This document shows, piece by piece, positions 30,079-57,981 of a stretch of 64,000 bases of DNA; positions within the stretch are counted from its first letter, which is position 1; every line of letters begins with the position of its first letter. The stretch is from Cupriavidus basilensis (GTDB lineage Bacteria > Pseudomonadota > Gammaproteobacteria > Burkholderiales > Burkholderiaceae). The notes below the pieces were generated by a model. The model was not told the origin of the DNA, did no database searches, and was given only the letters and a program-made list of their open reading frames with translations. A program made the position numbers and the translations under genes. The stretch lies in assembly GCF_000832305.1 (NCBI RefSeq), contig NZ_CP010537.1:3348001-3412000 (forward strand), in the 5' to 3' direction.

Positions 30079-30579
30079 TCAGAGAATCATTGGTCTGTCG
30101 CTCAACTCGTTCTTGCCGCTGGCCTGCGCGGGAAAATGCCTGCCCAGATGCCGGCTGATGGCCTGAACGCCGGCGATAACACCACGTTGATACTCAGCGC
30201 GTCGGAAGGCAGCCTCCATTTCCCTGCAAACGACATCCCACTCACCGGGCTCGACCTTCGCGTGGATGCCACGGTCAGCAACAATTTCAACGCTGCGATC
30301 TGCCAGCAATAGGTAAATCAGGACACCATTGTTATGTTCTGTATCCCAGACGCGCAACTGAGAGAAGACTTCGACGGCACGCGCGCGCGCCAGCCCCCCC
30401 TTGAATAGGCTCGTGAGGCTCAGCGCCCCCTCCACCGCAAAACAGAGCTGTCCGATATGTGTCGACTCGCTTTCTGCAATGGCTTGCTCGATTGCGCGCA
30501 GGGTCTCCTGCGGGAAGGCTTGCCTGACCTGCCAGTGAGTCATCAGCAGATGCCTAACGATGCGTTTGACGTTTTCCAT
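30079..30579 (-). CDS. TPM-domain protein (soluble form)
   Basis: 166 residues starting MENVKRIVRHLLMTHWQVRQ. The core (IEQAIAESESTHIGQLCFAV, then WDTEHNNGVLIYLLLADRSVEIVADRGIHAKV) is the TPM fold seen in the shorter partner of lemA/TPM operons. The family strand D-N-G-V-L-I-x-x-xxD-R appears here as NNGVLIYLLLADR. The start codon overlaps the stop of the preceding TPM gene (ATGA). There is no signal peptide, so it would be cytoplasmic or membrane-associated. TPM proteins are linked to membrane-complex maintenance and envelope stress, and the exact activity is uncertain. Confidence 0.82.
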   Translation of the reverse strand: MENVKRIVRHLLMTHWQVRQAFPQETLRAIEQAIAESESTHIGQLCFAVEGALSLTSLFKGGLARARAVEVFSQLRVWDTEHNNGVLIYLLLADRSVEIVADRGIHAKVEPGEWDVVCREMEAAFRRAEYQRGVIAGVQAISRHLGRHFPAQASGKNELSDRPMIL

Positions 30580-31421
30580 CACCACTTGCCCGAGGCACCG
30601 CCGCCGCCAAAGCCGCCGCCACCGCCACCGAATCCCCCAGAGCCCGAGCGGCCACCCGAGCGGCCCCCGATACCCAGCAAGCCCATGTGCCCGCCGCCCA
30701 GCAGCGTAAACAAGAGCGCGATTGCCGCCGCAACGATGGCAGCAAAGATGGCGCCGGAAAGCATCCACGCGACCACACCGACGGCGCCACCGGTCGCGAC
30801 TGCACCCGGGAACCTCCCCAGCATGGACCGCAATACCCCACCCAGAACCAGAGTGAGCACAAGAAGGATTGGCATCAGTTGCCGGACAGTGTCCCCCCTA
30901 TCCCCTGCCGTTTCCTTTGGCGGTGGCAGTGGCTCCCCTCCGATAACCCCAAGCATGCGGTCAACGCCTGCCGCCACGCCGCCGTAAAAATCGCGCTGCT
31001 TGAATCGAGGCACGATATCCTCACTGATGATGCGCTTGCTCGCAGCGTCAGTCAGGACGCCTTCGAGGCCGTAGCCCACCTCAATACGAAGCGTGCGGTC
31101 ATCCTTGGCAATGATGAGCAGTGCGCCGTCATCTACGCGCTTGCGTCCCAGCTTCCATTGCTCAACCACGCGAAGGGAGTACTGCTCGATGGTTTCAGGT
31201 TGGGTGGTGGGAACGATGAGAATCGCAACTTGCGCTCCCTTCTTTGCTTCGAAGGCCTGCAGCGTCTGGTCCAGGGACGCCTGCTGCTCGCGCGTGAGCG
31301 TGCCAGTCATGTCCGTCACTCGCGCGGTCAACGGCGGAACAGCAACATCGGCAATGGCCCCGAGAGACGCAAAGGCTGTCAGTGCTAGAAGCAGGCCTCG
31401 TGCTGCCGAGAGCAGGTTCAC
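30579..31421 (-). CDS. TPM-domain membrane protein (YgcG family)
   Basis: 280 residues: a signal peptide, a periplasmic TPM domain (VTDMTGTLTREQQASLDQTL, RKRVDDGALLIIAKDDRTLR, VGYGLEGVLTDAASKRII), then two membrane helices (RQLMPILLVLTLVLGGVL and a second near residue 220). A Gly/Ser-rich tail (SGGFGGGGGGFGGGGASGKW) closes the protein. That layout is standard for YgcG-type TPM proteins. It overlaps lemA upstream by 4 bp and the soluble TPM gene downstream by 1 bp, forming a tight three-gene operon. A role in envelope homeostasis is known of the family; a specific function here is inference. Confidence 0.9.
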   Translation of the reverse strand: MNLLSAARGLLLALTAFASLGAIADVAVPPLTARVTDMTGTLTREQQASLDQTLQAFEAKKGAQVAILIVPTTQPETIEQYSLRVVEQWKLGRKRVDDGALLIIAKDDRTLRIEVGYGLEGVLTDAASKRIISEDIVPRFKQRDFYGGVAAGVDRMLGVIGGEPLPPPKETAGDRGDTVRQLMPILLVLTLVLGGVLRSMLGRFPGAVATGGAVGVVAWMLSGAIFAAIVAAAIALLFTLLGGGHMGLLGIGGRSGGRSGSGGFGGGGGGFGGGGASGKW

Positions 31422-32038
31422 TTGGCACCCCCAGGGGCGCTGGCCGGCGTCGCACCGAATCCAACTTGTGGTGGCTTGGCGATACCCGCTTCGTCGGCGA
31501 CACTGAAATTTGGTTTTACCTTATAGCTAAACACCATCGCCGTCAGATTCGAAGGAAACGCACGCACAGTCACGTTGTAGGCCTGTACGGCCTGAATATA
31601 TCGATTTCGCGCAATGGAAATCCTGTTCTCAGTGCCTTCGAGCTGGGCCTGCAGGTCGCGGAAACCAGCATCCGCCTTCAGCTGAGGGTAGTTCTCCGAT
31701 ACGGCGAGAAGCCGGGACAGGGACCCGGAGAGTTGTTGCTGGGCGGCCTGGAACTGGGCAAACGCCTGCGGGTCGTTGAGCAGCGCGGGCGTGGCCTGGA
31801 TTGAACCGACGCGAGCACGGGCTTCAGTCACCTGCGTCAGCACTTCCCTTTCGTGGCTTGCGTAGCCTTTGACGGTATTCACCAGATTTGGTACCAGGTC
31901 CGCGCGACGTTGGTACTGGTTCACCACCTCGGACCAACCCGCCTTAACCTGCTCATCCTGCGACTGGATGGTGTTATAGCCACATCCTGTGAGGCTAGCT
32001 GCGAGCAGTACAACAAGCACCGACCATATTCTGCGCAC
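31418..32038 (-). CDS. lemA: LemA-family lipoprotein
   Basis: About 206 residues. The N-terminal hydrophobic stretch ends in a lipobox (LAASLTGCG), so it is a probable lipoprotein. It is followed by the helical LemA domain: WSEVVNQYQRRADLVPNLVN, VTEARARVG, LSRLLAVSENYPQLKADAGF, ENRISIARNRYIQAVQAYN. The preferred start is GTG at 32038, with AGGAGG 6 nt upstream; an ATG 14 codons earlier lacks a ribosome site. First gene of the lemA-TPM-TPM operon. Confidence 0.9.
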   Translation of the reverse strand: MRRIWSVLVVLLAASLTGCGYNTIQSQDEQVKAGWSEVVNQYQRRADLVPNLVNTVKGYASHEREVLTQVTEARARVGSIQATPALLNDPQAFAQFQAAQQQLSGSLSRLLAVSENYPQLKADAGFRDLQAQLEGTENRISIARNRYIQAVQAYNVTVRAFPSNLTAMVFSYKVKPNFSVADEAGIAKPPQVGFGATPASAPGGAK

Positions 32039-32177
32039 GAGACACCTCCTGCCTCTGGCGGCCCTCCTGACAAGCCGCATGAGTCTGCTAATCCACTAAA
32101 ACGCCCCCCGCGATGAGCACGCGCCGCCGCAAGCCGGGTTTCTATACTCATACTAGGCTGTGTGGATGACAGGTATC

Positions 32178-32191
32178 TTGACTTCGCTCAA
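32178..32191. promoter_or_regulatory. Imperfect FNR-like site
   Basis: TTGAC-TTCG-CTCAA has the symmetry and spacing of an FNR/ANR box (TTGAT-N4-ATCAA) but deviates in both half-sites. It lies in the divergent region between lemA and the methionine adenosyltransferase gene. No -10 hexamer sits at the expected distance, so it is only suggestive. Confidence 0.25.
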
Positions 32192-32329: not shown

Positions 32330-33511
32330 ATGCTGGCCTCGGAGAACATTGCGCTTTCCATCGCGAAGGCGCCATCACAGTGGGACGCGCGCACTGAGAT
32401 GTGCGAGCACAAGGGTATTGGTCATCCGGACAGTATTTGCGACGGTGCGGTCGAGGCTGGCGCCCGCGCCCTATGCCGGGCTTACCTCGAGACCTACGGG
32501 TCAATCCAGCATTTCAATCTCGACAAGGCGCTGCTGATTGGCGGCATGAGTGCACCGAAATTCGGAGGCGGTGAGCTGCTGCGCCCAATGCGATTGATAG
32601 TCTCCGGCCCGGTGACCAACCTGCCGTCGGCCACGGCTGAGGCAGTCGTTGAGCAGGCCATTCGCGAGTACCTGACAGCAAGCTTAGGCGGGATTGGCAA
32701 TACGATTCACATCGAGCTCGTTCTGCGCCCTTCGGCTCCGAACCTCCGGCGGGTGACTGGCTACTCCGTCCCTCTGTCCAACGACACGTCCTTTGGTGTC
32801 GGCTATGCGCCATACTCCAGCCTTGAAAGCTCGGTGCTGTCTGTCGCGCACCTTCTCAACTCAAGTGGATTCAGGGACGCTTTCAAGGCGGCAGGCCACG
32901 ACTACAAGGTCATGGGAAGTCGACTGGATGCGCATCACCGCCTCACCGTTGCTCTCGCGTTTGTCGACCAAGATGTGCACCGCGTCGAGGAATACTTCAC
33001 GCTGAAGAATGAAATTACGTCGCTTCTTGCCAGGCACATCCGTCCTTTATGCGAGATTGAAATCAATACCCTGGACGACCCCGCTGCCCGCGACGAAAGC
33101 GGACTCTACCTGACCGTCACAGGCCTGAGCGCGGAACACGGTGACGACGGTGAAGTGGGTCGTGGGAACCGGGTCAATGGCTTGATTACACCCTATCGAC
33201 CCATGTCGCTGGAGGCTGCGGCGGGGAAGAACCCGGCTTCGCATGTCGGCAAGCTCTACAACGTGTTAGCCCATCGGCTGGCAGCGCATATTGAGGCCAA
33301 CGTGGATGGCGTGGATGTCGTCTTCATCCGGCTGCTGTCTTCGATTGGGCGCCCAATCGACCAGCCGCAACTGGTCGCAATCGATGTGACCGCGGCAGAT
33401 GGGCTCTCGACCGCCCGACAACAGCAAATCCGTTACCTCGTTGGGCAGCAACTGGCGGAGCTCCCCGCCTTGGTAAAGGAACTGGTCAGCGGAACGGCGC
33501 CAGTCTTTTAG
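32330..33511 (+). CDS. Archaeal-type methionine adenosyltransferase (S-adenosylmethionine synthetase)
   Basis: 393 residues of the archaeal-type MAT family, not the bacterial MetK. Diagnostic blocks are EMCEHKGIGHPDSICDGAVE near the N-terminus, FGVGYAPYSSLESSVLSVAH, and the catalytic GRGNRVNGLITPYRPMSLEA followed by AGKNPASHVGKLYNVLAH. AAGGAGG lies 5 nt before the ATG. It would make SAM from ATP and methionine in the cytosol. A bacterium of this kind has MetK for housekeeping, so this is probably an acquired paralogue with a specialised role, next to lemA/TPM and the YHS-FtsH-PPK2 operon. No motif appears lost. Confidence 0.93.
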   Translation: MLASENIALSIAKAPSQWDARTEMCEHKGIGHPDSICDGAVEAGARALCRAYLETYGSIQHFNLDKALLIGGMSAPKFGGGELLRPMRLIVSGPVTNLPSATAEAVVEQAIREYLTASLGGIGNTIHIELVLRPSAPNLRRVTGYSVPLSNDTSFGVGYAPYSSLESSVLSVAHLLNSSGFRDAFKAAGHDYKVMGSRLDAHHRLTVALAFVDQDVHRVEEYFTLKNEITSLLARHIRPLCEIEINTLDDPAARDESGLYLTVTGLSAEHGDDGEVGRGNRVNGLITPYRPMSLEAAAGKNPASHVGKLYNVLAHRLAAHIEANVDGVDVVFIRLLSSIGRPIDQPQLVAIDVTAADGLSTARQQQIRYLVGQQLAELPALVKELVSGTAPVF

Positions 33512-33646
33512 GTCCGCAATCCCGGCCCAGTCTGCTTGCCATCGGTGCCGGCAGGACTTCTCTAACGTCGTCTGCCCATTCTTGCGCTGTTCCGCGTTCA
33601 ACGCCGCCGCACCCACGGCACCAAATCATCGCAGTTGCAGCATTTC

Positions 33647-33660
33647 TTGATTCGCATCAA
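33647..33660 (+). promoter_or_regulatory. Consensus FNR/ANR box of the YHS-ftsH-ppk2 operon
   Basis: TTGAT-TCGC-ATCAA is a perfect FNR consensus. A -10-like GATACT (33682-33687) is centred 31 bp from the box centre, the geometry of a class II (-41.5) FNR-activated promoter. The YHS start codon follows about 54 bp further on. The element is read directly from sequence; activation by a chromosomal FNR-type regulator under oxygen limitation is inference. Confidence 0.75.
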
Positions 33661-33740
33661 GAGACAAAGCCGATGGGAGCCGATACTGAGAATGCAAATC
33701 ATGCGTTGCAGGCTGCTACTCGCCATAGGCAGAGGATGTG

Positions 33741-34142
33741 ATGCCCACGAGCTCCGCTACCCCCTATGGGGACAAATACGGCGTTACCGATGCGCAGACG
33801 GCCCCGGCGACCGCCCAAGGCACAGCCGCGCCCCCGCAACGGGTGCGGGACCCGGTTTGCGGCATGGGAATCTCCCCCGGGGAAGCCGCTGCCAGCACGG
33901 AGGTTGACCAGAAGCAGAAGCGCTACTGGTTCTGCTCGCATTGCTGCGAACAGGTCTTCCTCGCCAAGGACCCCATCTGCGGGATGATCGTCGACAAGGC
34001 GACGGCCCTAGCCACCGAGCGAGGCAACCGCAAGTACTACTTTTGTGGTGAGAGTCACCTTCGAACTTCCGACTCGCCAGAGAGCGAGATGAAAGCAATC
34101 ACGGACTGGATTTCCGATGGCTTCAGACATCCCGACCGCTGA
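33741..34142 (+). CDS. YHS/TRASH-domain metal-binding protein (C-terminus probably frameshifted)
   Basis: 133 residues with two Cys-containing metal-site repeats: RDPVCGMGISPGEAA with YWFCSHCCEQVF, then KDPICGMIVDKATALA with KYYFCGESH. D-P-V-C-G-M plus a downstream F-C-S-x-x-C is the YHS signature, seen in copper ATPase N-termini and heavy-metal chaperones. There is no signal peptide, so it is cytosolic as read. The frame stops at 34142 after DWISDGFRHPDR, but another frame immediately continues into a clean hydrophobic helix, suggesting a lost membrane anchor. It is first gene behind the FNR box, upstream of ftsH and ppk2. A metal-sensing or delivery role is inferred. Confidence 0.8.
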   Translation: MPTSSATPYGDKYGVTDAQTAPATAQGTAAPPQRVRDPVCGMGISPGEAAASTEVDQKQKRYWFCSHCCEQVFLAKDPICGMIVDKATALATERGNRKYYFCGESHLRTSDSPESEMKAITDWISDGFRHPDR

Positions 34143-34246
34143 CATGGTGGTCCGTCATCTATCCGGCCATCGTGTTCGCGGTCGGGTTCTTCGCCGCCGG
34201 CGCCTTCTTTGCGTGGCTACAGAATATGCTGCGAGGAAACGACTGA
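34103..34246 (+). pseudogene. Out-of-frame transmembrane tail of the YHS protein (or small coupled ORF)
   Basis: In a frame different from the YHS protein the sequence reads QTSRPLTWWSVIYPAIVFA, continuing VGFFAAGAFFAWLQNMLRGND before a TGA at 34244-34246. It is one strong membrane helix with basic/polar ends. No ATG, GTG or TTG opens this frame after its upstream stop. It is best explained as the natural C-terminus of the YHS protein displaced by a single-base indel near 34100-34140. A non-canonical start or programmed frameshift is the alternative. Confidence 0.55.
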
Positions 34247-34371
34247 CCCAGGAACCCGAACCGTTGCCACGGCAAAGGTACAGCACCCCGCACGTTTGCC
34301 GACCTAACCTCACCTCTGGACCGACTCCCGGCCGCCACACGGCCGTTTGCTAAGAAGATAAGAGGCCCCCA

Positions 34372-36315
34372 ATGGAACCGCGTCAACAACAGTTCTCCCT
34401 CTTGTACGTACTTGCGGCAGCCGTGATGATGCTTGCCATACAGAGCTACATAGGCACCTCTCATATCGAAACCCTGCCATACAGCGATTTCAAGGTCCTG
34501 CTCAAGGCCGGCAAGCTCAAGAACGTCGCGCTTGGGGAGGCGGCCATCACGGGTACGCTCAGCACTGAGGGCATCGATAAATTTCTTCCCAAGCAGCAGG
34601 TCGACGAGATGCTGCGCGAGGGGAAAGGCGACCATCAGTTTTCCACGCTCCGGGTCAATGACCCCAATCTGGTTCAAGACCTCGAAGCGGCCAAAGTACG
34701 CTTCGTCGGGGAAGCCGATAGCAAGTGGATTGGCGTCCTGCTCTCGTGGATTGTGCCGGCGCTCCTGTTCTTTGCAATCTGGAGCTTCATGATTAAGCGT
34801 ATGGGCGGGGCCGCCAGCGGGATGCTGGAGATTGGGAAGAGCAAGGCCAAGGTCTATATGCAGAAAGAAACTGGCGTGACCTTTGCCGATGTCGCTGGCA
34901 TCGACGAGGCCAAGGAGGAGCTCTCTGAAATCGTGAACTTCCTGAAGGACCCTCAGCGCTACAGACGCCTCGGCGGCAAGATTCCAAAGGGTGTGTTGCT
35001 GCTGGGGGCACCGGGTACCGGCAAAACCCTTCTCGCGAAGGCCGTTGCCGGAGAAGCTGGTGTGCCTTTCTTCAGCTTGAGCGGCTCCGACTTCGTTGAG
35101 ATGTTCGTTGGCGTGGGCGCAGCACGGGTGCGCGACCTGTTCAACCAAGCCGAGAGCAAGGCGCCCTGCATCATCTTCATCGACGAACTCGACGCGCTGG
35201 GCAAAACCCGCGCGTTCAATGCAATGGGCGGCAATGAGGAGCGCGAGCAGACGCTGAACCAGTTGTTGGTGGAGATGGACGGCTTCGATACCAATAAGGG
35301 GGTCATCATTATGGCGGCCACCAATCGTCCTGAGATTTTGGACCCCGCCCTGTTGCGTCCAGGGCGGTTTGACCGCCATGTCGCACTCGACCGTCCAGAC
35401 CTGAAAGGCCGCGAGCAGATTCTCAAGGTCCATGTCAAAAACGTTGTCCTCGCCCCCACCGTTGAGCTAACAAAATTGGCGGCGCGCACACCTGGATTCG
35501 CCGGAGCCGACCTCGCCAACCTCGTCAACGAGGCCGCGTTGCTGGCGGCTCGCAAGGGGGAGGATGCGGTGGAGATGACCGACTTTGATGAGGCACTGGA
35601 CCGCATTGTTGGCGGGTTGGAAAAGAAGAACCGTGTGATGAATCCTCAAGAAAAGGAAACCATTGCCTACCACGAAGCGGGTCATGCCATCGTGGCGGAG
35701 TCGCGGCCACGCGCTGACCGTGTCTCGAAAGTTTCCATCATTCCGCGTGGTGTGGCCGCGCTTGGTTATACGCAGCAAACACCGACGGAGGACCGCTATC
35801 TACTGAAGCAGAGCGAACTGCTTGACCGACTTGATGTGCTGCTCGGTGGCCGCGTCGCCGAGCAAATTGCTTTTGGGGATGTGTCGACCGGTGCACAGAA
35901 CGATTTGCAGCGCGCCACCGACATGGCGCGCCAGATGATTACCCAGTTTGGGATGAGTGAACAGCTTGGACTGGCAACCTATGAGGAAATGCGAAATCCC
36001 ATGTTCATGGGCGCTGGCATGATGCCACGAGAGCGCAAGGAATACAGTGAAAGCACGGCGCAGATGATTGATACCGAGGTCAGACAGATTCTGGCCGATG
36101 CGAACGGGCGAGTGAAGCAAACACTGCTGGCAAATCGGAACAAACTCGACGCACTGGCCAAGCTACTGCTCGAGCAAGAGGTCGTAGACCGGTCTGCCCT
36201 CGACTTGCTGCTATCCGACAAAGTTACCCCGCTGACGCCGGGAAAGCATGCTGCAGAGACCGCCGAAACACCAGACCCACGGACGCGGAACAATGAAAAA
36301 AACGAAGGCAAGTAA
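34372..36315 (+). CDS. ftsH: FtsH-family AAA+ membrane metalloprotease
   Basis: 647 residues. Two N-terminal helices ([18 protein letters not shown] and [20 protein letters not shown]) flank a periplasmic domain. The AAA module has Walker A GAPGTGKT near 213, Walker [13 protein letters not shown], and the second-region-of-homology [19 protein letters not shown]. The zinc protease domain has HEAGH near 434. It degrades misfolded or short-lived membrane and soluble proteins at the inner membrane. The Walker B reads ELDALGKTR rather than the housekeeping EIDAVGRxR, so it is probably an acquired paralogue. Its 3' end overlaps ppk2, and the operon lies behind an FNR box. Confidence 0.95.
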
Positions 36316-37099
36316 CCAAGAGGATGACGCTGAAGTCAGTTCCATTTCGCATGGCGAATACGAAGAGGAACTGCATTTACTTCAGATTGAGCTGGTGAAA
36401 CTGCAAAGGCACTTCCTCTGCTGCAACGACCGGATACTGGTCATTTTCGAGGGGCGAGATGCCTCCGGGAAGGACGGAACGATTAAGCGCATCGTGGAGC
36501 ATCTCAGTCCGCGCGAAACGCGAGTGGTCGCGCTCGGGAAGCCATCCGACCGCGACCGAGGCTCATGGTATTTCCAACGATTTGCGGCGGAGTTGCCTGC
36601 CGCCGGAGAATTCACGCTCTTTAATCGCAGTTGGTATAACCGGGCAGGTGTCGAGCACGTGATGGGCTTTTGCACTGACGCGGAGCACGAGGAGTTCATG
36701 TCTAGCGTCCTTGAGTTCGAAGGCATGCTGGTTCGTTCTGGCATTCGTCTCATCAAATACTACCTGGACATCACCAAGCCGGAACAGAAGAAGCGACTTG
36801 AGGACCGCCGGCGCGACCCGCTAAAGCAATGGAAGATAAGCCCCATCGACGAGCAGGCAGTCTCGCTTTGGAATAAGTACAGCAAGGCTCGAAACGAGAT
36901 GTTTGCCCGCACCAACGCTGTCGTGCCATGGAACGTCGTCAGCGCAGACGATAAACGCCTGGCGCGCCTCAATGTCATCAAGGATTTGCTGCATCGTCTT
37001 CACTATGCGGACAAGGATGAGCAGCTGATTCGCCCACGTCGGCAGATTGTGTTTCCCTATGCAGATGAACACCTGCTGAGCGGAGCCATTGCGAAATGA
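36293..37099 (+). CDS. ppk2: Polyphosphate kinase 2 (PPK2)
   Basis: 268 residues starting ATG 36293 within the end of ftsH (23-bp overlap, translational coupling). It has the PPK2 P-loop (IFEGRDASGKDGTIKRI), FNRSWYNRAGVEHVMGF with the conserved SWYNRAG block, KYYLDITKPEQKKRLEDR (lid region) and WNVVSADDKRLARLNVI. It transfers phosphate between polyphosphate and nucleotides, commonly regenerating ATP or GTP from polyphosphate in the cytosol. Coupling to an ATP-hungry protease under a low-oxygen-type promoter suggests polyphosphate-driven energy supply. Class I-like by length; the nucleotide preference is not deducible. Confidence 0.93.
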   Translation: MKKTKASNQEDDAEVSSISHGEYEEELHLLQIELVKLQRHFLCCNDRILVIFEGRDASGKDGTIKRIVEHLSPRETRVVALGKPSDRDRGSWYFQRFAAELPAAGEFTLFNRSWYNRAGVEHVMGFCTDAEHEEFMSSVLEFEGMLVRSGIRLIKYYLDITKPEQKKRLEDRRRDPLKQWKISPIDEQAVSLWNKYSKARNEMFARTNAVVPWNVVSADDKRLARLNVIKDLLHRLHYADKDEQLIRPRRQIVFPYADEHLLSGAIAK

Positions 37100-37369: not shown

Positions 37370-39826
37370 TTAAATCTTCGCCTTCCGCAGCCGCAATGCA
37401 TTTGAGACTACCGAGGCAGAACTAAGACTCATCGCCAGCGCAGCAATCATGGGAGATAGCAACCAACCGGTAGACGCGTACAACACCCCTGCGGCAAGCG
37501 GCACCCCCAAAGCGTTGTAGACAAAGGCAAATCCGAGGTTCTGCTTCATGTTCCAGATTGTTGCCTCTGACAACTCCCGCGCGCGGGCAATGCCACGCAG
37601 GTCTCCTTTGACAAGCGTCACTTGCGCACTGTTCATCGCGACATCGGTGCCCGTGCCCATGGCAATGCCCACATCGGCCTTCGCGAGCGCCGGCGCGTCG
37701 TTGATGCCGTCGCCGGCCATCGCAACAACTCTGCCTTCCGCCTGGAACTTCGAGACCAGCGCCAGCTTGTCGGCCGGCTTCACCTCGCCGTGGAACTCGT
37801 CAATACCCAGCTTTGCGGCCACCGACTTGGCCGTCACCACGCCGTCCCCAGTGGCCATCACAACCCGAATGCCCACCTCTCTCAGCCTGGCGAGCGCTTC
37901 GGGCGTAGTGGGTTTCACGGGGTCTGACACGGCGAGAATCCCTGCCAGCTTTCCATCAACGGCAAGATACATGACGCTTGCGCCCTGGGCGCGTAGGGTG
38001 TCACCCTCGCCGGCTAGGGAATCCGTACCAATGCCTTCGGCTTGCATCAGCGCGGTGTTGCCAAGCGCCAGCTTCCTGCCGGCGACAATCCCTCGCACCC
38101 CAATGCCCGTGCCAGATTCGAAGTTCTCTGCCTTCTGAAGTACTAGATTGCGCTGGCGAGCCGCCTCAACAATAGTGGCGGCAAGAGGATGCTCGCTGCC
38201 CTGGTCGAGGCTTGCGGCCAGCCGAAGAACTTCCTCTTCCGTGAAACCGTTCGCGCCAATCGCGCGTTCGAACGTGGGACGACCTTCAGTCAGGGTGCCG
38301 GTCTTGTCGACAATCAGCGTGTCCACCTTCCGTAGATTCTCAATGGCCGCCGCATCACGAAACAGCATACCGTTCGATGCACCTTTTCCGCTCGCCACCA
38401 TAATAGACATCGGCGTAGCTAGTCCAAGCGCACACGGGCATGCAATGATGAGAACAGCGACAGCATTGATGAGGCCATACACCCAGCTCGGCTCTGGACC
38501 GAAGAAGCCCCAAGCGAAGAAGGTAATCAGCGCGATACCGACCACCGCCAGAACGAACACCCCGGCCACCTTATCGGCCATCCTCTGCATCGGCGCCTTG
38601 GAGCGTTGTGCCTGTGCGACCATCTGAATGATTTGCGACAGCACTGTCTGAGAGCCGACTTTCTCGGATTTGATGACGAGGCTGCCGGACGTGTTCATCG
38701 TCGCACCAATGACGTGGTCGCCCACCCGCTTGGTAACAGGAATCGGCTCCCCGGTAATCATCGATTCATCCAGCGAGCTCGAGCCCTCGGTCACAACGCC
38801 GTCCACCGGCACTTTCTCGCCTGGCCGTACGCGAAGCGTGTCCCCAACGTGGACATGTGTCAGCGGCACGTCTTCCTCGGTACCGTCCGCATTGATGCGC
38901 CGTGCTGTCTTTGGTGCCAGGCCGAGCAGCGACTTGATAGCAGCCGACGTTTGCGACCGTGCCTTCAACTCCAGCAACTGGCCAACCAGCGTCAACGAAA
39001 TGATGACGGCGGCGGCCTCGAAATACACACCGATTCGACCGTGGGCCGCGAAGGCCTCGGGAAAGACGCCAGGAGCGACCGTTGCAATCACGCTGTAGAG
39101 ATACGCGGCGCCGGTGCCAAGTCCAATCAGGGTCCACATGTTTGGGCTGCGATTGATGAATGACTGCATGCAGCGCTGGAAGAACGGCAGCCCCGCCCAG
39201 AGGACCACGGGAGTGGCGAGAAGCAGCTCCACCCAACTCTGGGTAGACACCTCCATTAGGTCAAGCTGATGCCCGAACATCGCCAGAATGAACACGACGA
39301 CCGTCAGCGGGAGCGTCCACCAGAAGCGATGACTGAAATCGACAAGTTCTGGATTTTCCTCCTCGTCTAGACCTGGGATTATCGGCTCCAGTGTCATGCC
39401 GCATTTCGGACAGTTCCCCGGGTGGTCTTGCCGAATCTCCAGATGCATCGGGCAAGTGTAGATAGTGCCTTCCGAGGCGAAGGCAACCGAGGCGTCCACT
39501 GCGGGAGCGATGTACTTGAGAGGCTCGGCCTCGAATTTCTTCTGGCACGATTCACTGCAAAAGAAGTAGCGGACCCCATCGTGCTCGCTATGGAAATGCG
39601 AATCCGCTGTGACCGACATACCGCAGACCGGGTCATTCAGTTGCGTCGCGGCATCCGGGGCGGCGTGGCCATGGTTGTGCTCACACCTCACGTGGCTTTC
39701 AGGAGCGGAAGGGTTCGAATTACCGTGCTGATGATGAGAGCCATGGTCATGCTCGTTACCCAAAGATTGCCCACCGCTCGCGTGTTGGTTGTGGGAGTCC
39801 GTATCCTTACCGCGTTGGTCGCTCAT
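37370..39826 (-). CDS. copF: Copper-translocating P-type ATPase (CopF-like)
   Basis: 818-residue P1B-ATPase. It has a His-rich N-terminus ([23 protein letters not shown]), a YHS domain ([15 protein letters not shown] with [12 protein letters not shown]), then a heavy-metal-binding Zn-ribbon-like domain ([20 protein letters not shown]). The pump core follows: TGEP in [13 protein letters not shown], the CPC transmembrane motif [10 protein letters not shown], phosphorylation site DKTGTLT and hinge [16 protein letters not shown]. It pumps Cu(I) from cytosol to periplasm. It is the distal gene of a leftward copper cluster, separated from the rest by a broken cupredoxin gene. Confidence 0.95.
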
Positions 39827-40433: not shown

Positions 40434-41378
40434 TTAGGACGTACCTGGCAGCGGGCTCGCTACCAGCACCGTAGCAGCAACCAATACCCCTGCTAGCACC
40501 CACGACTCCACATATAGAATGGCGGCGAAGCGCCTGATTTGGCGAGCGAGAGACACGGATGACCCGCTTTTCAACGAGGCCAACAAACGAGGCATTTCAA
40601 AGAACCGATTGTGCCCCCCGAGAGCCGCAGCAGCTACCGCGAGGGAAACCTTCAGCACGAGCAGTTGCCCGTACGCCGAGCCGAGCAAATTGCCGGGCGG
40701 ACCTACTCCTCGCCACCCGTTATAGGCTCCGGTGACAAAGAGCGCGATAAGCGCGTACGTGGCCGTATCGGATAGCGATTGAATGAAAGACGCACCGTTC
40801 TGGTGGTCACCCTGTGAAGCCTCGGCCATCTTCGGCGCCACCATGAACGCGGCGACCCACACGATGCCAACCCAAGTACTAACGGCCAGAAGATGAATCC
40901 AATCGGCCCAAACCGGCAGACTGAACGCGCCAGCGTCCACGGGATGGCCCGAATGGCTTCGGCTCAGTGCAAAACCCGCAAGCCCAAGCCCCTGAGCCAG
41001 TTGGCAGCCAAAGGCGCTTCCGGTCCAAGGGAAGAACGAAATGAGGGTGACAAAAAGCATGAAGGCAGCGCCAATACCCCAAGCGCGACCGAATTCCGTT
41101 TCCGTCAGCATCGAGCGCACCGCCGGCCAGGCGTCTGCCAGCGAAGACTCGCTCATCAGCGCGCAATGTATCCAGAAGGCGAGTACGCCTGACAGCAGCG
41201 CAACGATGGCACTGCCCCTGAATGCCCGCACCAACCGTCGGCTGACATCGGCTTGCCACGGCGACGGGGAACGAGCCAGCCAGCGCTCGCTCAACAAGGT
41301 ACCGACGAGCAAGGCAAAACTGAGGTTCTGCAGTGCCGTCAATGCAAGCCGCGAGATGCCAAGGAGACCGTCATTCAT
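40434..41378 (-). CDS. copD: Copper resistance membrane protein CopD
   Basis: 314 residues, about eight membrane helices. Conserved histidines are in RSHSGHPVDAG and WADWIHLLAVSTWVG, with the FVTGAYNGWRGVG motif and C-terminal helices VLKVSLAVAAAALGGHNR as in the CopD family. The ATG at 41378 overlaps the copC stop (ATGA); a GTG one codon upstream is an alternative start. CopD is thought to move copper across the inner membrane in partnership with periplasmic CopC. Order in the operon is copC then copD, as usual. Confidence 0.93.
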   Translation of the reverse strand: MNDGLLGISRLALTALQNLSFALLVGTLLSERWLARSPSPWQADVSRRLVRAFRGSAIVALLSGVLAFWIHCALMSESSLADAWPAVRSMLTETEFGRAWGIGAAFMLFVTLISFFPWTGSAFGCQLAQGLGLAGFALSRSHSGHPVDAGAFSLPVWADWIHLLAVSTWVGIVWVAAFMVAPKMAEASQGDHQNGASFIQSLSDTATYALIALFVTGAYNGWRGVGPPGNLLGSAYGQLLVLKVSLAVAAAALGGHNRFFEMPRLLASLKSGSSVSLARQIRRFAAILYVESWVLAGVLVAATVLVASPLPGTS

Positions 41379-41752
41379 CACTTCACCGTGAATTTATAGT
41401 CGCCCTTGACCTTGTGCCCGTCGTGCGTCATGACGGTCCAGTGCACGGCATAGGAACCCGACGACAGTTTCGGGACAGCAACCGTCAGCACACGCGGATT
41501 CGACGCGTCGACTTTGGCTTTCTCCTTGCTAACGACTGTGCCGCTGGCGTCGGCAACGCTCACATTGCTGAATGCCGGCTCCAGGTCTTCATTGAACGTC
41601 AGTCGAAGTGGACCCGCCAGCGCGTCAACCGTGCTACCCGCAGCCGGGTCTGCGCCTTCGAGTTTGCCGTGTGCAGATGCGATGGCGGGCGACAGTCCGA
41701 TAGCGGCGGCGGTCGCGAGGCCCATCAGCGTTTTCCGGGTCAGTGCTTTCAT
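41378..41752 (-). CDS. copC: Periplasmic copper-binding protein CopC
   Basis: 124 residues: a signal peptide ending IASAHG, so the mature N-terminal His (HGKLEGADPAAGS) is the first Cu(II) ligand. The Ig-like CopC fold then shows PLRLTFNEDLEPAFSNV and the C-terminal ligand segment YAVHWTVMTHDGHKVKGDYKF with Asp and His. It is the full-length family form without the Met-rich Cu(I) loop. Upstream, 69 bp separate it from the CusF-like gene; downstream it is coupled to copD. Confidence 0.95.
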   Translation of the reverse strand: MKALTRKTLMGLATAAAIGLSPAIASAHGKLEGADPAAGSTVDALAGPLRLTFNEDLEPAFSNVSVADASGTVVSKEKAKVDASNPRVLTVAVPKLSSGSYAVHWTVMTHDGHKVKGDYKFTVK

Positions 41753-41821
41753 GTGTATTCTTCCTCTGTGATTTCGGGCAGGTCATGGCGGCCGGGAGCC
41801 GGCCGCCTTTCGCAGGAGCGC

Positions 41822-42166
41822 TTACTGCACCTGAAGCTTGGTGACAGTCAGTGCACCATTCAAATCCTCGGCAACGAAGTCAATCTTGTCGCCAACCTTT
41901 ACTTGCGAAATCATGGCCGGCTCTTTGACCCTGAAGACCATCGTCATCCCTTCCATCCCGAGGTTTTCCAGCGGACCATGCTTGATAGTGAGCTTCCCGC
42001 TAGCGGCGTCGACCTTCTTGACCTCGCCGTGCGACATGCTCCCGGCGGTTGAACTTGCCTTGTGACCTGAGCTACCGCTCATGTCCATGTCGCCTGCGCC
42101 AGCAAACGCGGAGGCCGAGCACGCGAGTGCCAAGCCAACAACAATCGATACAAATCCCTTCTTCAT
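41822..42166 (-). CDS. CusF-like periplasmic copper-binding protein
   Basis: 114 residues. After a signal peptide (SIVVGLALACSASAFAGAGD) comes a short His/Met linker and a CusF domain: HGEVKKVDAASGKLTIKHGP, ENLGMEGMTMVFRVKEPAMI, VGDKIDFVAED. The GMTM-F segment and the upstream His supply the Met/His/aromatic Cu(I)/Ag(I) site. It would pass periplasmic copper to efflux or oxidase partners. It sits between the multicopper oxidase and copC on the same strand. Confidence 0.92.
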   Translation of the reverse strand: MKKGFVSIVVGLALACSASAFAGAGDMDMSGSSGHKASSTAGSMSHGEVKKVDAASGKLTIKHGPLENLGMEGMTMVFRVKEPAMISQVKVGDKIDFVAEDLNGALTVTKLQVQ

Positions 42167-42232
42167 GACTCTTACTCCGATAGTTGAACGATAGACGCGA
42201 ACCGGATACGCTCCGGCCCGTTGAAATCAGCG

Positions 42233-43525
42233 TTACGGCAGTTCGCCGGTGTACTCATAGGCGACTGTTCCTTTCGGATGCTTGTACCAACCCGGGTCTT
42301 TGTAGTCATTCCGTCCCAGACCTTCTCGCACCTTGAGTACAGTGAACATGCCACCCATCTCAACCGGACCGAAGGGACCTTGCCCGGTCATCATCGGCAA
42401 AGTGTTGTCTGGCAACGGCATCTCCATTCCCCCCATGTCAGACATACCGGCTTCTCCCATCGCCATGTAATCGGGCACGAGCTTGCTCATCTTCTTGGCA
42501 AGGTCCTTCTGCTTAACCCCGATCATGGTGGGGACCTGGTGCCCCATGGCGTTCATGGTGTGATGCGACTTGTGGCAATGGAAAGCCCAGTCACCGGGAT
42601 TGTTGGCCACGAACTCAATCGCGCGCATCTGCCCGACTGCAACGTCGGCCGTCACCTCGGGCCAGCGAGCGGCCTTGGGGACCCAGCCCCCGTCCGTGCC
42701 CGTCACTTCGAAGTCAACTCCATGCAGGTGAATTGGGTGATTCGTCATGGTGAGGTTGCCGATACGGATACGCACACGGTCACCGAGGCGCGCGGGCAAC
42801 GAGTCGATACCGGGGAACACGCGGCTGTTCCACGTCCACATATTGAATTCAGTCATGGTAGCGACGCGCGGCGTGTACGAGCCCGGGTCGATGTCGTAGG
42901 CAGACATCAGGAACACGAAGTCGCGGTCGACTCGCATGAACGACTGGTCTTTCGGATGCACGACGATAAAGCCCATCATGCCCATCGCCATCTGCACCAT
43001 TTCATCTGAATGGGGGTGATACATGAACGTGCCGGACTTGCCCATGACAAATTCATAGACAAAGGTCTTGCCCGGTTTGATATGCGGCTGCGACAGTCCA
43101 CCCACCCCATCCATACCGGAAGGCAGGATGACACCATGCCAGTGAACCGTGGTGTGCTCCGGCAATTTATTCGTCACGAAAATGCGGACCTTATCCCCTT
43201 CCACGCATTCGATGGTCGGCCCCGGACTCTGCCCGTTGTAGCCCCAGAGATGGGCTGTCATCCCTGGTGCGAATTCGCGCTCGACCGGTTCGGCAATAAG
43301 GTGAAATTCCTTCCAGCCATTGCGCATGCGCCAGGGTAACGTCCAGCCGTTGAGCGTTACCACGGGGTTATAGGGCCGTCCCGATGAAGGAAGGAGTGGA
43401 GGCTGCGTGGCAGCGCCGGATTGCAGAGGTGCTTCCGGCAGCGATGCCGCACCGGCTTTGGACACCACGGCGGCACCGAGCATGGCGGCACCGGAGCCTT
43501 GTAGGAATTGTCGACGGGAAACCAT
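42233..43525 (-). CDS. Multicopper oxidase (periplasmic copper oxidase, Tat-exported)
   Basis: 430 residues starting MVSRRQFLQGSGAAMLGAAV, a twin-arginine signal. The copper ligands appear in order: HWHGVILPSG, HPHSDEMVQM, HPIHLHGVDFE and HCHKSHHTMNAMG, covering types 1, 2 and 3 sites. A Met-rich tail (MGEAGMSDMGGMEMPLP) is typical of cuproxidases that oxidise Cu(I) to Cu(II). At 430 residues it is clearly shorter than the ~600-residue PcoA/CopA. It belongs to the smaller family seen with TolC-like partners in Cupriavidus copper clusters. Its start is 2 bp after the stop of the TolC-like gene, so the two are tightly linked. Confidence 0.93.
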   Translation of the reverse strand: MVSRRQFLQGSGAAMLGAAVVSKAGAASLPEAPLQSGAATQPPLLPSSGRPYNPVVTLNGWTLPWRMRNGWKEFHLIAEPVEREFAPGMTAHLWGYNGQSPGPTIECVEGDKVRIFVTNKLPEHTTVHWHGVILPSGMDGVGGLSQPHIKPGKTFVYEFVMGKSGTFMYHPHSDEMVQMAMGMMGFIVVHPKDQSFMRVDRDFVFLMSAYDIDPGSYTPRVATMTEFNMWTWNSRVFPGIDSLPARLGDRVRIRIGNLTMTNHPIHLHGVDFEVTGTDGGWVPKAARWPEVTADVAVGQMRAIEFVANNPGDWAFHCHKSHHTMNAMGHQVPTMIGVKQKDLAKKMSKLVPDYMAMGEAGMSDMGGMEMPLPDNTLPMMTGQGPFGPVEMGGMFTVLKVREGLGRNDYKDPGWYKHPKGTVAYEYTGELP

Positions 43526-43527
43526 GG

Positions 43528-44958
43528 TTACTGTCCTTTTCCGTTCGGCACGGTCATCTGTTTGATCTGTGGCGTGGCAGCCGCGTCGGCTTGTACGGGT
43601 AGCGCGCCCCCAAGCGAGCGTTGAAGGTCCGTCTCGGCCACCCAATAATCGCGAAGGCTGCCGATGTAGGTATTGACGCCGTCCACCTGCGCGCGCGTTT
43701 CGACCAGAAGCTCAAACACGCTAGCCAGCATGCCGTTGTAACGCAGCATCATTTCATCAACGATGGCCTTGCGCACCGGCACGACTTCATCGCGGTAGTG
43801 CCTGGCGATGTCGTAGCTCGTCTGGTAGCTCGCATAGGACTCGCGAACTTCCGAGCGCGCATTGATTGCGGTCTGCGCGAGTTGGTTCACGGCGAGCATA
43901 TAAACCGCTTCGGCACGCGCCACACGGGCGCTTCCCCAATCAAACAGCGGAATCTGCACGCTGATTTCGTAACCTGTCTCAGGCGGTGTATTCGATAGAC
44001 TGTTGCGCAGGTAGCCCACGTCCAGGACGTTGATAAAGCGTGTGGCCTTGGTTAGTCCGAGCGACGAAGCAACGCTCTGCGTCTGCAGCTTGCCGGCCTG
44101 AATATCGAGGCGGTTCTGCATGGCGTAGCCTTCGAGCTCCCCGAGTTCTGGCCGTTCCTTTGGCAGGTCCGGCAAGCGGTCTGGCAGCGTGAAATTCGCG
44201 CCGGTGCCCCACAATCCAATGGCGCGAACGAGTTTTTCCCGGTCGGAGATGGCTTGACGCCTGGCCCGCGCAAGCGCACCGGCGGTATCGGCGTAGAACG
44301 CCTGCTCGCGCGCCAGGTCGAGCTTGCTGAAGTTGCCAGCGGCCGCCAGGCGTCTCGCAAATTCTGCCCCCGCTTCGGCGCTCTCATTCACTTGCCCGGC
44401 GTACAGCGAAAACTGCTGTGCCGCGACGGCATTGACGTAGGCCTTGCGCGCTTCGGCTGCAACCTTCACGGTCTCATTGGCGACCAATAGCTTCGTCTGC
44501 TCATAACGCTTGCCTTCAATCTGGGAGATGAAGGGCAAAGTCAGGACGTTAAAGAAGGCGAGAGTAAAGGTCCGCTCGATCGACAGGTCGCTCCCTGCAT
44601 GCTTGCGGCTGAAAGTAAAACCTGGATTAGGCAAGCGGCTGGCTTGTACATAGTCGGCCTCGGAGATGCCAAGTTCGGCATAGGTGGCCTGCAAGCCTCG
44701 GTTGTTGAGCAGCGCCAGTTGTACTGCACCATCCATCGTCAAAGGCTGCGCAAGCAATTCCTGGGAGCGCTTGTATACGCTGTCCTGGTCCTCTTCTGAC
44801 CTGACCCAAGCAACGTCTTTGCCGAGCCGCTCCTTGGCAACAGAGGAGACGGAATTGAAGCCACCGTCCTTTGAGAACGTGGCACAACCGCCCAGGAACA
44901 CAGAAGCGGCCAGCGCCAATGCGCCAAGCCTCAAGGCTTGTATTGCTCTAATTGACAT
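43528..44958 (-). CDS. TolC-family outer-membrane efflux lipoprotein
   Basis: 476 residues. A lipoprotein signal ends LGGCATFSKDGG, and two outer-membrane-factor repeats follow (LTMDGAVQLALLNNRGLQAT, ADYVQASRLPNPGFTFSRKH; then LPKERPELGELEGYAMQNRL, GYEISVQIPLFDWGSARVAR). The ATG at 44958 has AAGGA at a proper spacing. It lacks neighbouring RND or membrane-fusion genes, so it may serve copper efflux with another pump or act in place of a CopB-type outer-membrane protein. It precedes the oxidase gene by 2 bp. Confidence 0.92.
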   Translation of the reverse strand: MSIRAIQALRLGALALAASVFLGGCATFSKDGGFNSVSSVAKERLGKDVAWVRSEEDQDSVYKRSQELLAQPLTMDGAVQLALLNNRGLQATYAELGISEADYVQASRLPNPGFTFSRKHAGSDLSIERTFTLAFFNVLTLPFISQIEGKRYEQTKLLVANETVKVAAEARKAYVNAVAAQQFSLYAGQVNESAEAGAEFARRLAAAGNFSKLDLAREQAFYADTAGALARARRQAISDREKLVRAIGLWGTGANFTLPDRLPDLPKERPELGELEGYAMQNRLDIQAGKLQTQSVASSLGLTKATRFINVLDVGYLRNSLSNTPPETGYEISVQIPLFDWGSARVARAEAVYMLAVNQLAQTAINARSEVRESYASYQTSYDIARHYRDEVVPVRKAIVDEMMLRYNGMLASVFELLVETRAQVDGVNTYIGSLRDYWVAETDLQRSLGGALPVQADAAATPQIKQMTVPNGKGQ

Positions 44959-46039: not shown

Positions 46040-46552
46040 CTACGGCTTCATCATGCCGCCGCCCATCCCCTGTCGGTCCATCATCATCTGCATCATTTCC
46101 TGCATCATCTCCATACGCTGGCCCATCATGTCGTGACACATGGGCATGTGCTCCGCCATGTCCGCCTGGTTCATCGGCATTTTTCCCTGCATGGCGCCAC
46201 GACCCTGCATCATCGGCATCGTGCTGTGCATTAGGGCCATACTATCCTGCATTACCTTAGCCTGCTCCGCCATCAGTGCCTGACGCTCTTCCGGCGTCTT
46301 GGCTCTCGACAGCCGTTCGTGCAGCGCACGCATATGTGCAATCTGCGCGTCCATGTCGGCATTCCTCTGCGCGGCATCCTTCGGCGCTGGACGCTTTGGT
46401 GCCGTCCCCTTCTGTGGTGCAGTAGCGGCAGCCTGCGCATGGCTATGGTCATGCGCAGCATCGGCTGGCTGCGGACCGGCCGAAAGCGCTAGCGGCGCCC
46501 AGATAAGCGCCGAAACCGCGATAAGAATGGGGGCTGATAGATTTCCGGACAT
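46040..46552 (-). CDS. Methionine-rich periplasmic protein (copper-binding type)
   Basis: 170 residues. A signal peptide (LIAVSALIWAPLALSAG) leads to a His patch (AAHDHSHAQ), a helical middle (QIAHMRALHERLSRAKTPEE, RQALMAEQAKVMQDSMALMH) and a Met-rich C-terminus (MMGQRMEMMQEMMQMMMDRQ). The Met pattern fits Cu(I) binding or sequestration in the periplasm. It closely parallels the protein at 50769-51329 in layout. A consensus FNR box with a suitably placed -10 lies upstream. No enzyme motif is seen. Confidence 0.82.
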   Translation of the reverse strand: MSGNLSAPILIAVSALIWAPLALSAGPQPADAAHDHSHAQAAATAPQKGTAPKRPAPKDAAQRNADMDAQIAHMRALHERLSRAKTPEERQALMAEQAKVMQDSMALMHSTMPMMQGRGAMQGKMPMNQADMAEHMPMCHDMMGQRMEMMQEMMQMMMDRQGMGGGMMKP

Positions 46553-46630: not shown

Positions 46631-46644
46631 TTGATTGATATCAA
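46631..46644 (-). promoter_or_regulatory. Consensus FNR/ANR box upstream of the Met-rich gene
   Basis: TTGAT-TGAT-ATCAA is a perfect FNR consensus. On the minus strand TAGATT (46609-46604) is centred 31 bp from the box centre, as in class II FNR promoters, and the start codon at 46552 follows with a leader of about 44 nt. The box is symmetric, so a rightward role is possible, but no good gene lies there. Confidence 0.7.
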
Positions 46645-50141: not shown

Positions 50142-50153
50142 TTGAATTCCCGC

Positions 50154-50756
50154 TCAGCAGCAACCAGATTTCGGGTTGCAGCCAGGGCTGCCCACTCTAA
50201 TGTGCGGTTTCTCCGCAGTTGTAAGGGTGATGCCCAACTTCTGCGCGAGTTGCTGGCGGGATGGGTACACCCCGGTGGCGACGATGTGGCCATCAACGCA
50301 AAGGATGGGGAGGCGGTCCATGCCCGCCTCCATTTCCTTGACCACGGCCGGATTGGCGGCGAAGGCCTGTGGCTCCTGGCCCAGATTGTGGCGCTCCACG
50401 GCAATGCCATGTTGCGCCACCCACTTCAGGTCAGCGGCAAACTGGGCAAGTATCGGGTCGACCTCAACACCGCAAACACCTGTCGAACAGCACATGGCAG
50501 GGTCAAATACTTCAAGTTTCGTCATGATGTTTTCTTTCGTCGGAACTGAACGGCAACCTTCGGCCCGTTGAACCGGCGGACACGGTACGTCACCGTAGGA
50601 ACAGAAGACACAACAATCGCCAGGCTTTGGTTTCATGACGGTCTTGCAACCGAGACACTCATAGAACCACTGACAGGCTTCGGTCGGCATCGTTTCCCTG
50701 CTGCCATGGCCGCAACGGGGACAAGTCAGCGTAGACTCAAGAATCACATCCATCAT
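50154..50756 (-). CDS. arsD: Zinc-ribbon (GDCCVFCSYG) domain fused to ArsD metallochaperone
   Basis: One open frame of 200 codons. Residues 1-~70 form a Cys-rich domain: LTCPRCGHGSRETMPTEACQ, YECLGCKTVMKPKPGDCCVFC, SYGDVPCPP. That block is usually a stand-alone protein of about 70-80 residues. From Met78 (50525) it is ArsD: KLEVFDPAMCCSTGVCGVEV with the vicinal Cys pair CC and the third Cys, then NPAVVKEMEAGMDRLPIL, GVYPSRQQLAQKLG and a CC C-terminus. ArsD delivers arsenite to ArsA. Only a weak ribosome site (GAAAG) precedes the internal ATG, so the fusion may be real, though separate ArsD translation is possible. Confidence 0.85.
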   Translation of the reverse strand: MMDVILESTLTCPRCGHGSRETMPTEACQWFYECLGCKTVMKPKPGDCCVFCSYGDVPCPPVQRAEGCRSVPTKENIMTKLEVFDPAMCCSTGVCGVEVDPILAQFAADLKWVAQHGIAVERHNLGQEPQAFAANPAVVKEMEAGMDRLPILCVDGHIVATGVYPSRQQLAQKLGITLTTAEKPHIRVGSPGCNPKSGCC

Positions 50757-56255: not shown

Positions 56256-56267
56256 GGTGTACTCCTC

Positions 56268-57128: not shown

Positions 57129-57154
57129 GCGGGCCTCCTTGGCTGCAACACATT

Positions 57155-57168
57155 CTATTCACAAATAG
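57155..57168. promoter_or_regulatory. Candidate SqrR/BigR operator
   Basis: CTATT-CACA-AATAG is a perfect inverted repeat in the A/T-rich 84-bp gap between the divergent MBL gene and repressor gene. A second A/T-rich block (TTCAATATACTATC, 57177-57190) follows. The site would let the repressor control both directions. Confidence 0.55.
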
Positions 57169-57212
57169 TTTATTTTTCAATATACTATCAGCATCGAAAT
57201 TGAAGGCGAACC

Positions 57213-57536: not shown

Positions 57537-57546
57537 GGGGCCCGAT

Positions 57547-57981
57547 ATGTTGATTGACCTGGGTAACTTCACACCTGGCCTGTCGCTGGCCGGAGGGCTC
57601 ATCATTGGCGCAGCTGCTGCCGTGCTCGTCCTGTTCAACGGCCGGATTGCGGGCATCAGCGGCATCCTCGGGGGGCTGCTCGGCTTGCCGCGCAACGACA
57701 TGGCATGGCGCGTGGCCTTCCTCGTCGGGCTGGTCGGCGCCCCTGTCCTGGCCAGCCTGCTCGGCAAGCCGGCGACGCCCGATATTCAAGCGAGCTGGGG
57801 GGAAATTCTGGTCGCCGGCTTCCTGGTCGGCCTCGGTACCCGCTACGCCAGCGGCTGCACGAGCGGCCATGGGGTATGCGGCATCGCACGCGGGTCCATC
57901 CGCTCGCTGGTCGCGACCATGACCTTCATGGCGGCGGGCTTCCTGACCGTCCTCGTACAACGACACATGATTGGAGGCTGA
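57547..57981 (+). CDS. YeeE/YedE-family half transporter (PmpA-like)
   Basis: 144 residues, four membrane helices. Conserved Cys are in [19 protein letters not shown], the signature of the sulfur-transport YeeE/YedE family. The ATG at 57547 follows AGGGGG. It begins 10 bp after the repressor stop. Half-size subunits of this type pair with the next gene product to make one pore for thiosulfate-like or other sulfur species. Confidence 0.92.

Follow-up and report, generated by a model that had tools for sequence, protein, structure and literature searches.

An archaeal-type SAM synthetase in a partly deleted, probably FNR-switched accessory cassette on a metal-resistance island of Cupriavidus basilensis

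Copper clusters that combine merR, copA, a cupredoxin gene, a DUF2933 gene and an isoprenylcysteine methyltransferase (ICMT) gene have been described on genomic islands of Alteromonas and other bacteria (PMC8478169). Geobacter has been described as carrying an additional archaeal-type S-adenosylmethionine (SAM) synthase besides its MetK (PMC545781), and the low-oxygen-activated (lxa) locus of Burkholderia cenocepacia encodes six universal stress proteins, with an Anr/FixK-type regulator proposed for it (PMC6127331). The locus described here shares features with each of these. It lies in the genome of Cupriavidus basilensis (8.42 Mb in two contigs), within a stretch of 64,000 nucleotides on contig NZ_CP010537.1 (C2:3348001-3412000); the whole of this stretch is called the window, and the coordinates given below are counted from its first letter. 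The genes in question encode an archaeal-type methionine adenosyltransferase (MAT), a YHS-domain protein, the membrane protease FtsH and the polyphosphate kinase PPK2. An earlier note on this DNA had drawn these four genes as a whole system. Relatives instead show a larger copper-island cassette, of which the window copy has lost part, and the four-gene system as drawn is therefore rejected. We consider it reasonably probable that the window holds a partly deleted copy of a modular accessory cassette, switched by FNR and directed against copper and envelope stress in the absence of oxygen, that is found on the metal islands of Cupriavidus and its relatives.

In the common Cupriavidus arrangement, a divergent LemA-TPM-TPM2 group is followed by a run of genes for MAT, a P1B-ATPase, a small transmembrane (TM) protein, a small YHS protein, DUF2933, an ICMT-type methyltransferase, DUF5676, FtsH and PPK2, with variants and losses among loci; the P1B-ATPase, DUF2933, ICMT-family and DUF5676 genes lie outside the set of four first proposed. 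The annotation of C. pinatubonensis plasmid p2 has the same order, minus ICMT. When species genomes were scanned, relatives of MAT turned up at 22 loci, including two archaeal ones; 20 more neighbourhoods were added, and the frames of the loci were clustered and named from Pfam. Recurrent co-occurrence, which the earlier note had set beforehand as a test of its proposal, was found: the gene set recurs around MAT in Cupriavidus and, in another arrangement, in some Ralstonia. For instance, four near-identical Ralstonia loci (the L009 type) have MAT with LemA/TPM and an ABC1 kinase, and FtsH and PPK2 a few kb off, while Ralstonia locus L007 has P1B, ICMT, LemA/TPM and ABC1 with neither FtsH nor PPK2. 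Additionally, plasmids of Burkholderia vietnamiensis and Paraburkholderia aromaticivorans carry MAT together with an ABC1 kinase, a P1B-ATPase and a multicopper oxidase.

Across 45 MAT loci, which include near-identical sets (the four Ralstonia loci, L083/L084 and the plasmid pair L123/L149) as well as two archaeal loci, the partners seen were P1B (21), ICMT, LemA and TPM (16 each), DUF2933 (15), FtsH and PPK2 (14 each), DUF5676 and small YHS (12 each), ABC1 (10), the small TM protein (c13; 8) and a Met-rich protein (7, the window's own copy being outside the stretch tested and so not counted). None of 13 query families had a match in 40 random 20-kb control windows from ten MAT-bearing replicons; these controls are all Burkholderiaceae, and some of the MAT loci come from outside that family. 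Genomes with PF01941, the Pfam family of MAT, numbered 10 of 399 in an order-level sample, 22 of 398 in a family-level sample and 4 of 398 in a phylum-level sample, where the window's own genome is counted in all three and only two of the last four exceed the family cut-off.

The window copy is a deletion derivative of this larger cassette. Its YHS ORF (33738..34142, + strand; PF04945, E = 1.9e-10) is truncated and fused to another frame; comparison with L006 and L012 by blastn puts the junction near 34097. In L012, the second YHS part corresponds to window positions 33960-34096, and the next match, from 34099, lies about 1.15 kb further on, inside the DUF5676 gene of L012. Judged from L012, the missing stretch comprises the last part of the YHS gene, the whole DUF2933 and ICMT genes and the beginning of DUF5676; a second, smaller gap of about 0.13 kb lies within the YHS gene. 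Because of the deletion, the YHS ORF ends in a foreign frame. The gene for the DUF5676 membrane protein persists as a remnant without its start (34099..34246, + strand; 88% DNA identity to L006 over 197 bp), and its frame reads HGLDFRWLQ...WWSVIYPAIVFAVGFFAAGAFFAWLQ, as in the DUF5676 proteins of relatives. What the earlier note took for a metal-binding YHS protein is thus a genuine PF04945 match, but a truncated deletion product and not a typical member. DUF2933 and ICMT genes are present in the cassettes of relatives; no ICMT was found in the window's genome and no DUF2933 in the window copy, the DUF2933 search having been limited to the locus. Locus L006 keeps DUF2933 and ICMT, yet its FtsH frame is interrupted.

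The MAT gene (32330..33511, + strand) encodes 393 aa and matches PF01941 over residues 6-388 (E = 2.4e-128; 428.8 bits against a cut-off of 27) and NCBIfam NF003366 (535.8 bits, cut-off 435). Solved archaeal MATs align over its whole length (6s81, E = 9.4e-87; 4l4q; 7p83). All 90 of the 90 near-invariant positions are retained, these being columns at least 97% conserved in a set of 39 MATs that includes the window MAT and two archaeal ones. With dN/dS values of 0.185 against L006 and 0.162 against L074, MAT is under purifying selection. L006 is the closest relative, and its MAT is 91% identical to that of the window; in a quick tree the window MAT clusters with those of L006, L079 and a Paraburkholderia protein, and this group nests in a clade of Cupriavidus, Ralstonia and Variovorax MATs, the deep branches being unsure. 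PF01941 was found once in the genome and the MetK C-terminal domain once, on the other contig. Because an ordinary MetK is also encoded, MAT is a second SAM synthetase, and the earlier claim of an archaeal-type enzyme in a bacterial genome holds. It is predicted to make SAM from ATP and methionine. A thymidine/AMP-phosphorylase-like gene also occurs near MAT in L007, L014, L015 and L026, as does a gene resembling phosphoribosyl pyrophosphate (PRPP) synthetase in L014, L026 and L091; these neighbours suggest a wider stress set of nucleotide enzymes.

FtsH (34372..36315, + strand) is a membrane AAA/M41 metalloprotease of 647 aa (TIGR01241, E = 2.3e-243) in which the AAA and M41 domains, the Walker A motif GAPGTGKT and the HEAGH (HExxH) motif are all present; the other FtsH of the same genome shares 51% identity with it. 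PPK2 (36293..37099, + strand) falls in the P. aeruginosa PPK2 family (TIGR03707, 351.5 bits against a cut-off of 301.8), its best solved relative being polyphosphate kinase 2 of 5llf (E = 8.6e-76). Family-profile matches thereby confirm the places and families that the earlier note had given to all four genes. The PPK2 gene overlaps the end of ftsH, also as previously read, by 23 bp with the PPK2 start at 36293 and by 68 bp with the longest frame, and the two frames overlap in 8/8 loci that have both genes adjacent on one strand (including L006 with its interrupted ftsH frame). Values of dN/dS were 0.142 and 0.068 for PPK2, 0.062 for FtsH and 0.08 for LemA, with synonymous sites near saturation against L012 and L074. 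From their sequences, the MAT, FtsH and PPK2 of the window look intact. Divergent from MAT, on the - strand at 30079..32080, are LemA (31418-32080) and two TPM-like ORFs (30579-31421 and 30079-30768). Pfam matches cover LemA (LemA, 1.7e-57) and ORF 30579-31421 (TPM_phosphatase, 4e-42); ORF 30079-30768 is labelled via its relatives, which recur in 11 loci and one of which is annotated 'TPM domain-containing protein'.

Sites for FNR were scored against the consensus TTGAT-N4-ATCAA. Motif search placed an exact box, TTGATTCGCATCAA, between MAT and the YHS ORF (33647..33660, + strand) and another exact box, TTGATATCAATCAA, before the Met-rich gene (46631..46644, - strand). Before MAT itself, motif and alignment point to an FNR-like site, TTGACTTCGCTCAA, with two mismatches (32178..32191, + strand). 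Genome-wide, there are 14 exact sites in 8.42 Mb, two of them within the window. In the window alone, three sites with at most one mismatch are not striking (three were reached by 10 of 100 shuffles), and the case for the boxes therefore rests on their conservation in relatives.

In 14 of 15 Cupriavidus loci MAT is followed by a box with at most one mismatch, exact in nine (L012, L072, L074, L075, L076, L078, L080, L085 and the window) and with one mismatch in five (L006, L008, L073, L077 and L079); in the fifteenth locus, L011, the gap between MAT and a divergently oriented P1B gene contains an exact box. The distance from MAT is 65-156 bp in 13 of the 14, another frame intervening in L080, and the box stands 85-91 bp ahead of the next cassette gene (the P1B or YHS frame) in 10 of the 14. 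The exceptions are L008, at 218 bp, and L076, L079 and L085, where the longest frame begins before the box. When the 14 downstream regions were aligned, the box columns were conserved while the upstream flanks diverged. The variant box before MAT is found in 9 of 15 Cupriavidus loci (L006, L012, L072-L075, L077, L079 and the window) and also in the Ralstonia loci, and its ends TTG and CTCAA are kept in 11/11 aligned upstream regions whose flanks diverge. The 14 downstream and 11 upstream regions were chosen for a seen or suspected box, and their alignments show conservation relative to flanks, not frequency. The contig of L085 begins within MAT, so its upstream region is not represented.

Frequency can be judged from whole loci. 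The 15 Cupriavidus MAT loci span 294,996 bp and hold 15 exact boxes, spread over 10 of the loci, where the genome-wide rate predicts 0.49. In 37 dereplicated MAT loci (710,107 bp) there were 29, spread over 21 of the loci; the 40 control windows (796,040 bp) had 0. Ten cassette loci without MAT had an exact box in two cases and a one-mismatch box in six more. In the window, L072, L078 and L085 an exact box precedes the Met-rich gene; L011 has one inside the longest frame and L008 a one-mismatch box, and in L014 and L026 there was no box within 220 bp of the gene. Three CRP/FNR proteins of the genome (L126, L127 and L128), one encoded about 33 kb left of the window, have a CxxCxxxxxC motif and an ETVSR helix, which we take as marks of FNR. 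FNR control of the cassette is well supported by these sites, at which FNR is predicted to bind. The box that the earlier note had seen before the second operon is conserved in relatives. Shared regulation of MAT with the ftsH-ppk2 operon, the absence of which the note had named as part of a refutation, is likely, because FNR-type boxes are conserved before that operon and, as a variant and in fewer loci, before MAT.

The G+C content drops from about 65-69% to 57-63% from 28 kb to the window end, and in the following 40 kb it is mostly 55-62% (extremes 52 and 65%). From about 30 kb onward the window has genes for CopD, CusF, a P1B copper ATPase, FTR1 and ArsD/ArsA. The cassette therefore sits on a metal-resistance island, the boundaries of which are drawn from base composition. 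After PPK2, on the - strand, is a copper P1B-type ATPase (37370..39826) with N-terminal YHS and heavy-metal-binding (HMBD) domains, one CPC motif and a TIGR01511 score over the cut-off. It is followed on the same strand, next to the cassette (40434..43645), by genes for CopD (PF05425) and CusF (PF11604) and by ORFs that we presume to be CopC-like and multicopper-oxidase-like from a reading of their sequence only. The Met-rich protein, putatively secreted to judge from its sequence, is encoded at 46040..46552 (- strand) and recurs with the cassette. The same island carries an ArsA-family ATPase with ArsD upstream (48390-50756) and a CRP/FNR-family regulator (51690-52289) in which EALYR is read where FNR has ExxSR. 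Possible persulfide/sulfide genes lie at 54588-57981: a BLH-phosphatase and FAD-oxidoreductase fusion, a metallo-beta-lactamase-like protein, an ArsR-like regulator and YeeE-like proteins. The Pfam scan of this region covered the 54588-56255 ORF, and the other names come from reading the sequence.

FNR is active without oxygen, copper(I) is more toxic in the absence of oxygen, multicopper oxidases require oxygen, and PPK2 enzymes of the P. aeruginosa type make nucleotide triphosphates from polyphosphate. From this background and the anatomy of the cassette, we infer an oxygen-off switch. FNR-type regulators would turn the cassette on as oxygen falls, and under hypoxia the oxygen-dependent multicopper oxidases would be unable to dispose of copper(I), which the P1B-ATPase, with its metal-binding YHS domains, and the Met-rich protein may handle in their place. 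LemA/TPM, FtsH, DUF2933, DUF5676 and the ICMT-type membrane methyltransferase may serve membrane upkeep or modification, the archaeal-type MAT could provide extra or stress-proof SAM, and PPK2 could use polyphosphate to hold nucleotide triphosphates up. Such a switch would jointly raise the export and binding of copper, the turnover of membrane proteins, the supply of SAM and the use of polyphosphate.

Several observations weigh against a single cassette of this kind. In the stretches examined, P1B, LemA, FtsH and PPK2 are all unseen in 16 of the 45 MAT loci, and 13 of the 45 are without any of the twelve partner families; the locus counts are also not independent, because the loci are kin. 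In L016, L017, L027 and L089 (Sulfuricella/Sulfurimicrobium-type), MAT stands in an unrelated context, near genes for glutamate dehydrogenase and 2-oxoacid:ferredoxin oxidoreductase. MAT is interrupted in L012, and MAT fragments occur in other genomes. Additionally, L190 retains all other cassette members while its MAT is reduced to two edges (L190:11190-11940). The DNA in this gap matches the MAT upstream region (best E = 1.5e-12) and the MAT 3' end (best E = 1.9e-11), and both FNR-like boxes are still there; a protein-level MAT remnant is weak (E = 0.15). Since the gap keeps the upstream DNA, the 3' end and both boxes, MAT was deleted in L190, and it is dispensable or facultative in the cassette. 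The FNR-type sites before MAT are less uniform than those before the second operon. The variant box is not at its place upstream of MAT in L008, L011, L076, L078 and L080, the window site has two mismatches, and the usual form has CTCAA in place of ATCAA at its end. Within a fixed stretch at the gene start, a box with at most one mismatch was found for MAT in 11/37 clusters against 65/515 other gene starts of the same loci, which are themselves box-rich.

Of the alternatives, hitchhiking survives best and is nonetheless unlikely. It holds that the genes are unrelated, individually useful cargo on metal islands, with only the vehicle and the regulator in common. Modules are indeed gained and lost separately: ten ICMT loci without intact MAT, author-chosen out of 30 such genomes, have P1B in 8, DUF2933 in 9, LemA in 5, FtsH in 1 and PPK2 in 2, while the window and L072 have MAT without ICMT, and Ralstonia loci have the genes in a different order and on different strands from Cupriavidus. 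However, the LemA-MAT-FtsH-PPK2 order and the ftsH-ppk2 overlap are kept in Cupriavidus loci whose MATs differ from the window's at about a quarter of residues, and the box positions are conserved. At the other extreme is a self-contained FNR-switched module, in which PPK2 with polyphosphate, the archaeal-type MAT, the membrane methyltransferase, FtsH and LemA/TPM would form a SAM-supplying membrane-repair system. This strikes us as distinctly unlikely; if true, the module would sustain methylation and membrane protein turnover without oxygen while copper(I) poisons ordinary enzymes.

A narrower proposal, to which we give very little credence, is that MAT is a dedicated SAM supply for the cassette ICMT, which would methylate an isoprenoid, thiol or lipid target in copper defence. 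The co-occurrence of MAT with METHYLTRANSFERASE (ICMT) was counted in the family sample of 398 genomes, accepting ICMT matches with E up to 1e-30. ICMT is present in 47 of the 398. Of the 22 MAT genomes 17 have it (Fisher p = 1.6e-13, kinship ignored), each time on the contig that carries MAT; in 15 of them it is no more than about 12 kb away, and in the other two the distance is about 19 and 21 kb. In a gammaproteobacterial metagenome-assembled genome (L020), DUF2933, ICMT and MAT are contiguous, and the C-terminal part of ICMT matches solved ICMTs (4a2n, E = 4.1e-8). Against this, 30 of the 47 ICMT genomes are without MAT, and the losses seen in the window and L072 have their converse in L190, which has ICMT without MAT. 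Strict MAT-ICMT coupling is thus not supported, and because each is lost without the other, we make no claim that MAT exists to feed ICMT. The energy module of the earlier note, in which PPK2 would use polyphosphate to regenerate ATP so that FtsH proteolysis, and perhaps MAT, could run during respiratory failure, has the PPK2 family assignment, the constant overlap of the same-strand genes and the FNR boxes in its favour, but it is highly improbable given that ATP is shared cell-wide, that FtsH and PPK2 lie on opposite strands in the L009-type Ralstonia loci, and that PPK2 occurs near MAT without FtsH in Nevskia (L013) and L079, and FtsH without PPK2 in L080.

The FNR-switched copper and envelope-stress cassette is the reading that we prefer. 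Copper islands are usually seen as efflux and oxidation systems; a recurring extension that carries FNR boxes and core metabolic enzymes suggests that copper defence under anoxia may depend on SAM, nucleotide and protein-quality supplies of its own. The cassette also gives an example of bacteria employing an archaeal-type MAT alongside MetK, and the model gives a clear prediction that is testable in Cupriavidus.

Among known stress loci, the cassette resembles the transmissible locus of stress tolerance (tLST), or heat-resistance locus, of E. coli pECO-cbb3 (L148) in being a mobile stress island with a second FtsH; the FtsH of that locus is only 54% identical. By tblastn (E 1e-10, half length), no match to ClpK, YfdX1/2, HdeD, Cls or the MscS-type channel was obtained in the window and 42 MAT loci, and Hsp20-type matches were present in 2 of these 43. 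As ClpK, YfdX and HdeD were not found, identity with tLST is rejected. The lxa locus is likewise a Burkholderiales gene set raised at low oxygen, compared here by description only; the main text of that paper is without the terms 'adenosyl', 'polyphosphate' and 'FNR' (PMC6127331). In the open-access literature, no paper was found on the joined FNR-boxed cassette, and nothing on MAT with copper resistance in Cupriavidus or on copper/P-type ATPase islands, on PPK2 with FtsH on a genomic island, or on isoprenylcysteine with a YHS domain and copper. Geobacter is alike in having a classical MetK and an archaeal-type MAT in one bacterium; the passage concerned stands under methionine metabolism and, unlike the present case, does not mention a metal-island or FNR context (PMC545781). 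The Alteromonas-type clusters likewise combine, on islands and plasmids, a copper P1B-ATPase, DUF2933 and a methyltransferase of the ICMT type. In contrast to them, the present cassette adds LemA/TPM, MAT, FtsH-PPK2 and FNR-type boxes, and its window copy is without DUF2933 and ICMT; none of the terms adenosyltransferase, polyphosphate, FtsH and YHS appears in the main text of that report (PMC8478169). The copA-DUF2933-ICMT part on islands, and a bacterium with both MetK and an archaeal-type MAT, had thus already been described.

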